A stretch of 25,618 nucleotides of DNA from a virus, in the IMG/VR virus record IMGVR_UViG_3300023179_005360, positions 1 through 25,618 of that record. One strand, 5' to 3'. This document shows positions 2,360-3,131 of the stretch, piece after piece. Under the pieces are notes generated by a model that saw only the letters and a program-made list of their open reading frames with translations, was not told the DNA's origin and made no database searches. Made by a program: the position numbers and the translations under genes. Positions within the stretch are counted from its first letter, which is position 1. Each line of letters begins with the position of its first letter.

Positions 2360-2427
2360 AATATAGTTGTATGATATAGAAGGAAAAACATTGTGGACGC
2401 GGGTTCGATTCCCGCCTGGTCCACCAA

Positions 2428-2491
2428 AAGCATTCTGATGTAGGTCTTGGTCGTTACCCGCATTGAGCGAAAACGGCGTCCCAGAGTGCTT
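2428..2491 (+). other. Intervening hairpin joining the two tmRNA pieces
   Basis: Bases 2428-2437 (AAGCATTCTG) pair with 2482-2491 (CAGAGTGCTT) over ten positions with one T-G wobble. This hairpin sits between the CCA of the acceptor piece (2426) and the first base of the 5' half (2497). In permuted ssrA genes such a segment is excised from the precursor, leaving a two-piece RNA; here excision would leave the encoded CCA as a mature 3' end. The pairing is seen directly; the processing is inferred from the known alphaproteobacterial and cyanobacterial RNAs. Confidence 0.8.
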
Positions 2492-2583
2492 CTGATGGGC
2501 CAGTCATGGTTTCGACATGGTGAAGAGTACTGAAGTGGACAACTCGCTAGGCGAAGAGCGTAATTCTAGCAAATCAAATAAAC

Positions 2584-2616
2584 GCAAACGACGAGGTCTT
2601 TGCCCTAGCAGCTTAA
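2584..2616 (+). other. tmRNA tag reading frame, tag ANDEVFALAA
   Basis: GCA at 2584 begins the frame encoding ANDEVFALAA and ends at TAA 2614-2616. With the alanine carried by the RNA itself the tag would be A-ANDEVFALAA. The ALAA end is the degron recognised by ClpXP, so tagged proteins should be degraded. The bases GCAAACGACGA at the resume site are the same as I remember for the E. coli gene, which fixes the choice over the in-frame GCA at 2569. The last codons and stop lie in the hairpin CCTAGC/GCTAGG (2604-2609 with 2617-2622). Confidence 0.85.
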
Positions 2617-2685
2617 GCTAGGTGGGGTTTTGGCGGTTGGCCTTATTAACCAAACAACCGCCGCTACAACAACTTGGAGCATTTT

Positions 2686-2892
2686 ATGCACTTACAGCTT
2701 ACAACACATAACTTAGAAGTTAGTTTTAACTGCGATGCCGAAGATCATTACGATCACAGCAGATTACTAAAATTATTAGCAGAATTAATTGATGAATTGG
2801 ATAGTCATATAGGAGTTGATCTAGTAGTTACTAGTACACATCCTAATGATAGCACTGATAGTGACAGTGAAGATGACAAGTGGAACGACTAG
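2686..2892 (+). CDS. Small acidic protein, 68 aa, unknown
   Basis: Starts at ATG 2686, six bases after GGAG (2676-2679); an upstream in-frame TTG at 2674 would overlap this binding site and is less likely. The protein begins with a strand-like segment (LQLTTHNLEVSFN), continues with a leucine-rich helix (about 26-40) and ends with a Ser/Asp-rich acidic tail (STDSDSEDDKWND). No membrane segment or cysteine motif. It follows the tmRNA gene by about 15 bases and may share its transcript. Acidic tails of this sort occur in DNA mimics and in partners of basic proteins, but nothing here proves a function. Confidence 0.7.
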   Translation: MHLQLTTHNLEVSFNCDAEDHYDHSRLLKLLAELIDELDSHIGVDLVVTSTHPNDSTDSDSEDDKWND

Positions 2893-2990
2893 AATATATT
2901 AATCTTATAGATAAACCGCGTTATTATTTACGTTGGTTTTTAGACAAACATAATTTTATAAAAGTAGAATTAATTCGAATGCGGGATTAG
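2880..2990 (+). CDS. Possible 36-aa protein ending inside tRNA-Gly
   Basis: A GTG at 2880 overlaps the end of the previous gene and opens a 36-codon frame (VERLEYINLIDKPRYYL at its start) whose TAG (2988-2990) is part of tRNA-Gly. The ribosome-binding site is weak (a purine-rich GAAGA about seven bases upstream). The composition is protein-like, with several aromatic and charged residues, and translational coupling to the preceding gene is possible. It is too short to separate from a chance open frame. Confidence 0.3.
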   Translation: MERLEYINLIDKPRYYLRWFLDKHNFIKVELIRMRD

Positions 2991-3056
2991 CTCAGTTGGT
3001 AGAGCGTAACTTTGCCAAAGTTAAGGTCGTGGGTTCAAGACCCATATCCCGCTCCA
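2981..3056 (+). tRNA. tRNA-Gly(GCC)
   Basis: A complete cloverleaf: acceptor GCGGGAT/ATCCCGC, D-arm GCTC...GAGC, anticodon stem TAACT/AGTTA with loop TTGCCAA (anticodon GCC at 3014-3016), T-arm GTGGG-TTCAAGA-CCCAT, discriminator T and encoded CCA (3054-3056). It decodes GGC and GGT glycine codons. No obvious promoter of its own is present. Confidence 0.95.
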
Positions 3057-3057
3057 C

Positions 3058-3131
3058 GCGATAGTAGCTCAATGGTAGAGCGCCTCGCTTACACCGAAAG
3101 GACCAGCAGTTCGAATCTGTTATTGAGTACT
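3058..3131 (+). tRNA. Degenerate tRNA-Val(TAC)-like sequence
   Basis: One base after tRNA-Gly lies a clear D-arm (GCTC...GAGC, 3067-3082), an anticodon loop CTTACAC (TAC at 3090-3092) and a T-arm with TTCGAAT loop (AGCAG/CTGTT). However only three of five anticodon-stem pairs form (CCTCG/CGAAA) and the expected acceptor strands, GCGATAG and ATTGAGT, do not pair. A six-pair alternative, CGATAG with TTATTG, would shorten the T-stem to three pairs. CCA is not encoded. It is either a decaying tRNA, an RNA edited after transcription, or a tRNA-like processing element. Confidence 0.45.

Follow-up and report, generated by a model that had tools for sequence, protein, structure and literature searches.

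Does a phage that encodes its own ribosome-rescue RNA carry a working gene, and what would the phage gain from it? The question is raised by a 25,618-base viral fragment from IMG/VR (the window, meaning the whole stretch of DNA analysed), in which a sequence-only reading had proposed a phage-borne circularly permuted tmRNA at 2361-2670 and had suggested a covariance-model search as the check.

Identity and setting of the gene

Covariance models and ARAGORN identified window positions 2362-2670 (+ strand) as a complete circularly permuted (two-piece) tmRNA gene, in agreement with that proposal and with its coordinates to within a few bases. Using cmscan, we found that the Rfam model tmRNA_permuted (RF04321) matched 2365-2616 at 138.7 bits (gathering cut-off 47; E = 1.5e-27) and that beta_tmRNA (RF01850) matched 2313-2668 at 131.9 bits (gathering cut-off 84; model positions 1-331, the terminal hairpin of the model being missing from the window alignment). 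ARAGORN, which is independent of the Rfam models, also reported a permuted tmRNA, with the tag ANDEVFALAA. The spaced pattern TCCACCA...TGGTTTCGAC gave zero chance matches in shuffled window sequence. Since DNA similarity to sister phages (L170, L304, L228, L287 and L302) starts exactly at base 2362, we place the 5' boundary of the gene there. The features of the locus are:

2362..2426, + strand: acceptor piece (Rfam alignments; compensatory changes in T-stem and P2; start of sister-phage similarity), with the P2 helix 5' strand at 2365-2369, the T-arm at 2399-2415 and the acceptor 3' strand CUGGUCC at 2416-2422
2427..2496, + strand: intervening segment, a 70-nt hairpin (fold; an open frame stands in its place in L004/G002)
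2497..2665 (3' end approximate), + strand: coding piece (pairing, Rfam, compensatory changes), with the acceptor 5' strand GGGCCAG at 2497-2503, UGGUUUCGAC at 2507-2516, the P2 3' strand at 2540-2544 and a 3' hairpin GGCGGUUGG...CAACCGCC
2584..2616, + strand: tag frame ANDEVFALAA with its stop TAA (ARAGORN; identical tag in L304, L004, L228, L283 and L103)
2674..2892, + strand: 72-aa protein with no assigned function, adjoining the tmRNA (syntenic in sister phages, 46-96% identity)
2981..3130, + strand: tRNA-Gly(GCC) and tRNA-Val(UAC), downstream of the tmRNA (ARAGORN)

The CCA-bearing acceptor piece lies 5' of the coding piece and the acceptor stem closes across the intervening segment, with 7 of 7 pairs formed when the alanine-identity G3.U70 wobble (G2499.U2420 in the window) is counted; A-CCA is encoded in the DNA at 2423-2426. 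The tag frame occupies 2584-2613, with a hydrophobic degron end, and is followed by the stop TAA at 2614-2616. Full pairing of the acceptor strands and a hairpin with a 10-bp base between them, both described in the earlier reading, were borne out, the segment folding at -22.1 kcal/mol (z = -2.6); the window's own 70-nt intervening segment is a non-coding hairpin. In known permuted tmRNAs, the intervening segment is not part of the mature RNA. A consensus promoter scan of the window revealed no clearly placed promoter for the tmRNA gene; promoter-like matches outnumber those in shuffles by a modest margin, and one of them ends at 2367, within the P2 strand.

Also present in the window, in one block, are genes for a split NAD-dependent DNA ligase, a DnaB-like helicase, a primase, a Pol, a helicase, an exonuclease and SbcCD; the Pol shares 49% identity over 99% with its counterpart in Enterobacter phage KKP_3711. 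We read this block as a putative T5-like replication module, with a gene order that appears to resemble that of T5. The same block is found in the sister phages L170, L304, L228, L283, L287, L004/G002 and L421/G003, at identities to the window that range from 94-99% for LigA and DnaB (L170) through 79-91% for most replication proteins (L004/G002) to 63% for Pol (L421/G003). A tmRNA is present in all of them, for most beside the same neighbours, and is syntenic through this apparently T5-like clade down to ~63% Pol identity. A whole-window near-identity search of phage isolates returned tRNA-Met matches only, and the 72-aa protein next to the tmRNA had no Pfam or PHROG match. Upstream of the tmRNA, adjacent genes for an A-type Fe-S carrier and IscU lie at 761-1504, with an 18-bp terminator-like hairpin directly after IscU (1533-1576); IscU has at least 600 relatives in IMG/VR, indicating that viral contigs often carry Fe-S assembly genes.

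Conservation of the RNA and its tag

For an assessment of selection, 108 non-redundant copies were gathered from fetched loci, nearly all from IMG/VR, with a pattern that needed at least 5 of 7 acceptor pairs, through which complete loss of the stem would escape; the shuffles used for comparison do not remove relatedness. Acceptor pair 2417/2502 was paired in 107 of 108 copies (shuffle maximum 68), pair 2418/2501 in 101 of 104 (67) and pair 2419/2500 in 100 of 104 (68). Because several Watson-Crick pair types are used at these three positions, there is little doubt that the acceptor stem across the intervening segment is under selection in phage relatives. Position 3.70 was G.U in 106 of 107 copies and A-U in one, the T-stem was paired in 108 of 108 with compensatory pair types present, and four of the five P2 pairs exceeded every shuffle. 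Within the window's own clade, one acceptor pair changes from U-A to A-U on both strands. Pairing in related phages, on which the earlier proposal had been staked, is therefore kept with compensatory changes, and the clade shows long-term selection on a phage tmRNA.

Most clade members carry the tag ANDEVFALAA, and L170 carries ANDEVYALAA. Among 58 ten-residue phage tags, every one has N2, A9 and A10, and position 5 tolerates different residues (V, Q, K, R, S and others), as expected if the degron is selected; one of the scans behind this set had ANDEVFALAA as its query, which raises the share of that tag. The LAA end is found in 81 of 102 phage copies. An ALAA end is the ClpX determinant, the terminal Ala-Ala being the main one (PMC7652416); in E. 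coli, the adaptor SspB docks on the N-terminal portion of the tag (PMC7652416, PMC8512704). ANDEVFALAA had been called a ClpXP degron from its letters, rightly so, since it ends in ALAA, the form recognised by ClpXP.

ANDEVFALAA-TAA occurs in 89 IMG/VR stretches, mostly clear permuted tmRNAs. A scan of 84,980 GTDB species genomes, covering the TAA stop only, in unmasked sequence on contigs of at least 3 kb, gave a single hit, on a contig that looks viral. This contig sits in a Bacteroidia bin, holds a permuted tmRNA and encodes what we take, from translations rather than a family search, to be two MazG-like proteins and one Hsp20-like protein. It is probably viral, because none of the other 394 sampled Bacteroidia genomes has a permuted tmRNA over the cut-off. 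The tag thus looks phage-only, occurring on no clearly bacterial contig searched, and is a possible marker of phage tagging in proteomes of infected communities.

Several other observations concern tags and copy number. One GTDB Bacteroidia MAG has three permuted tmRNAs on separate contigs (L201; G001 contigs C175, C126 and C13), which are probably co-binned phages and call for caution in tmRNA surveys. Long or unusual phage tags (ANADTFDFSAMSFTGN...VALAA, i.e., ANADTFDF...VALAA; ANDAFYGEDRLAA; ANDAEFKVAAYA) were seen at L120, L139, L163, L174, L409, L107, L112, L115, L180 and L197. ANDEVFALAA also occurs in divergent tmRNA-like genes at L220, L223, L262 and L266, which depart from the consensus in the T-loop (GGGGCAGTACC-type) or the TTCGAC motif (TATCGATTGAC-type), and L255:7019-7985 holds two stretches like the tmRNA coding half, ~0.6 kb apart, possibly two tmRNA copies.

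Protein frames within intervening segments

Five loci (L232, L281, L297, L369 and L375) have a 454-455-nt intervening segment with a 146-codon staphylococcal-nuclease homologue (PF00565, E = 2.6e-12), whose frame begins 12 nt past the CCA, downstream of an AGGA, and leaves 1-2 nt between its stop and G1. The segment of L349 holds an 84-codon thioredoxin (PF00085, E = 4e-21), on a contig that also encodes a ribonucleotide reductase small subunit. Among segments of at least 95 nt, 52 of 59 distinct ones are filled by a frame starting no more than 18 nt from the CCA (3.9 expected from frame-fixed shuffles), in a set enriched for filled segments by a search pattern that required a ribosome site and an ATG; a tag-based scan, blind to the segment, gave 6 filled of 34 distinct segments (11 of 52 contigs). 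All 52 frame-filled copies retain 7 of 7 acceptor pairs, and covariance matches span the nested genes (L232, 114 bits; L349, 136; L375, 95; L357, 105). The start codon lies ~9-15 nt past the CCA, mostly accompanied by an AAGGA-type ribosome site; the frame then closes at the 3' end of the segment or continues into the coding half.

Comparison of nuclease homologue pairs revealed a dN of 0.088 vs. a dS of 1.0, and other nested homologue pairs likewise had dN well below dS (e.g., 0.006 vs. 0.17 and 0.058 vs. 0.54). The products are nuclease, thioredoxin, small membrane proteins and unassigned proteins, under purifying selection wherever testable; the figure of 33 protein clusters is approximate, an 11-member cluster being partly joined by a common tmRNA-derived tail. 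Shuffles and dN/dS together rule out chance as the origin of the frames. Trans-splitting of the L232-type genes is likewise ruled out, the acceptor half lying 455 nt upstream across the nuclease gene. Nested protein frames in phage permuted tmRNA genes are well supported. Besides the nuclease and thioredoxin loci, such frames were recorded at L333/L355/L311, L357/L378, L330/L385, L367/L379, L372, L004/L221 and others. The L378 contig encodes a protein that we take to be isocitrate lyase, and may be bacterial or prophage rather than free phage. In isolate Melnitz, considered as a case of a nuclease inside a tmRNA, the homologue is located among baseplate genes, and in six isolates checked, the only frame to fill the segment was a short run-through across the 31 nt of DLP_6.

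In the close relative L004/G002, the segment is 143 nt long and contains a 52-codon frame reaching 27 nt into the coding half; this frame has no family match and, as a single frame, stands outside the dN/dS set. We consider it likely that the intervening segment is an exchangeable protein-gene slot in phages, empty in the window and filled in L004/G002. From a single transcript, host tRNA processing would then yield an mRNA together with a two-piece tmRNA, and we infer that rescue-RNA and protein production would be coupled through this step. The relatives suggest that the portion of a tmRNA gene which known examples discard can house a protein gene; should this hold, phages would physically link RNA processing, ribosome rescue and protein expression. 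Our full-text literature search found no published account of protein frames in tmRNA intervening segments; PMC11915505 reports intervening sequences with one tRNA and one repeat and, in the passages searched, names no protein frame. The nearest analogue met is the S23p frame in an intervening sequence of Coxiella 23S rRNA (PMC4990558).

Likely role and relation to known tmRNAs

We favor, with a probability of about 0.82, a working, vertically kept, circularly permuted phage tmRNA whose likely benefit would be extra ribosome-rescue capacity in infection. The gene looks functional because both halves, the acceptor stem, G3.U70, the CCA, the SmpB/D-loop motif and the tag frame are intact, and because the RNA structure is under selection among relatives. 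Following established tmRNA biology, host tRNA-processing enzymes would cut the transcript into two pieces that are still base-paired, host alanyl-tRNA synthetase would charge the RNA, and host SmpB would bring it to stalled ribosomes, where it would append ANDEVFALAA and free the ribosome, the tagged proteins passing to host ClpXP. Host mRNA decay would strand many ribosomes on broken messages, and more rescue capacity may benefit the phage. SmpB (PF01668) was found in 0 of 22 phage records, several of them fragments, with a control search positive in 10 genomes, so host SmpB would be needed.

That the tmRNA instead mainly tags host or viral proteins for ClpXP, for amino-acid recycling or cell remodelling, with the altered tag setting the protease or adaptor, is in our view unlikely. 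The full tag with its ALAA end is kept, its distribution (89 viral stretches vs. one viral-looking contig among the 84,980 GTDB genomes) and the long or unusual tags of some phages fit such a role, and recycling has been put forward before (PMC9004378). Trans-translation, however, acts on stalled ribosomes and not on chosen proteins, and the distinctive V sits at a freely varying position, away from the ClpX-bound ALAA, which gives no sign of a switch in protease. A decoy role, in which the RNA would titrate host SmpB or AlaRS and thereby block host trans-translation, has a precedent in mycobacteriophage DS6A, for whose tag-less fragment (tRNA-like domain only) it was suggested (PMC4131195, citing Mao et al. 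2009). In the window, tag frame, stop and resume region are all undamaged and are conserved across the clade, which makes a decoy highly improbable. We give as little credence to a passenger without a role in the phage, whether copied recently from a host or left behind at an integration site. Although tmRNA genes are common integration sites (PMC11915505), both halves of this gene are complete, it is kept with compensatory changes across phages whose Pol is 63-88% identical to the window's, its tag is on no clearly cellular contig, and no integrase was found among the window proteins scanned.

The view that the gene points to a host lineage with permuted ssrA did not survive. Isolates SM1 (Pseudomonas aeruginosa), DLP_6 and Mendera (Stenotrophomonas), XacN1 (Xanthomonas) and BUCT-ZZ01 (Synechococcus phage) all pass the beta_tmRNA cut-off, so the host cannot be read from a match to this model. 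Among bacteria, permuted tmRNA belongs mainly to Alphaproteobacteria, Betaproteobacteria and Cyanobacteria (PMC11915505). Whether a host uses permuted tmRNA cannot be told from its presence in the phage.

Nor is the gene as unusual as it had been rated, for phage two-piece tmRNAs were surveyed in 2022 as an aquatic-enriched class (PMC9004378), and a single permuted-tmRNA pattern picks out at least 119 stretches of IMG/VR; the window gene belongs to this already known class. What looks less expected in the family is the phage-only-looking tag and the use of intervening segments as gene slots. The window gene shares gene order, an acceptor stem across the segment, TGGTTTCGAC and a GCCUU-UUA-CCAAA region near the 3' end with the betaproteobacterial permuted tmRNA (RF01850; merged RF04321), and differs from it in being phage-borne, in the absence of the last model hairpin and in a tag found on no clearly cellular contig. 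It has the permuted form in common with SM1 and PA_L9 (Pseudomonas), DLP_6 and Mendera (Stenotrophomonas), and XacN1 and X1 (Xanthomonas), whose tags differ (ANDTSFDVRLAA, ANDDSFAPMAIAA, VAANDDSYTVRIAA and others) and whose DNA does not match the window phage beyond the tmRNA. Like Melnitz and other aquatic phages, it is a permuted tmRNA in an aquatic phage; the Melnitz tmRNA is reported to be of alphaproteobacterial type with a glutamine riboswitch (PMC9004378), whereas the window's is of beta type, in a T5-like phage, with no riboswitch found by Rfam cmscan. Finally, it is phage-borne like the DS6A tmRNA fragment, which holds little beyond the tRNA-like domain (PMC4131195), whereas the window gene is complete with its tag.
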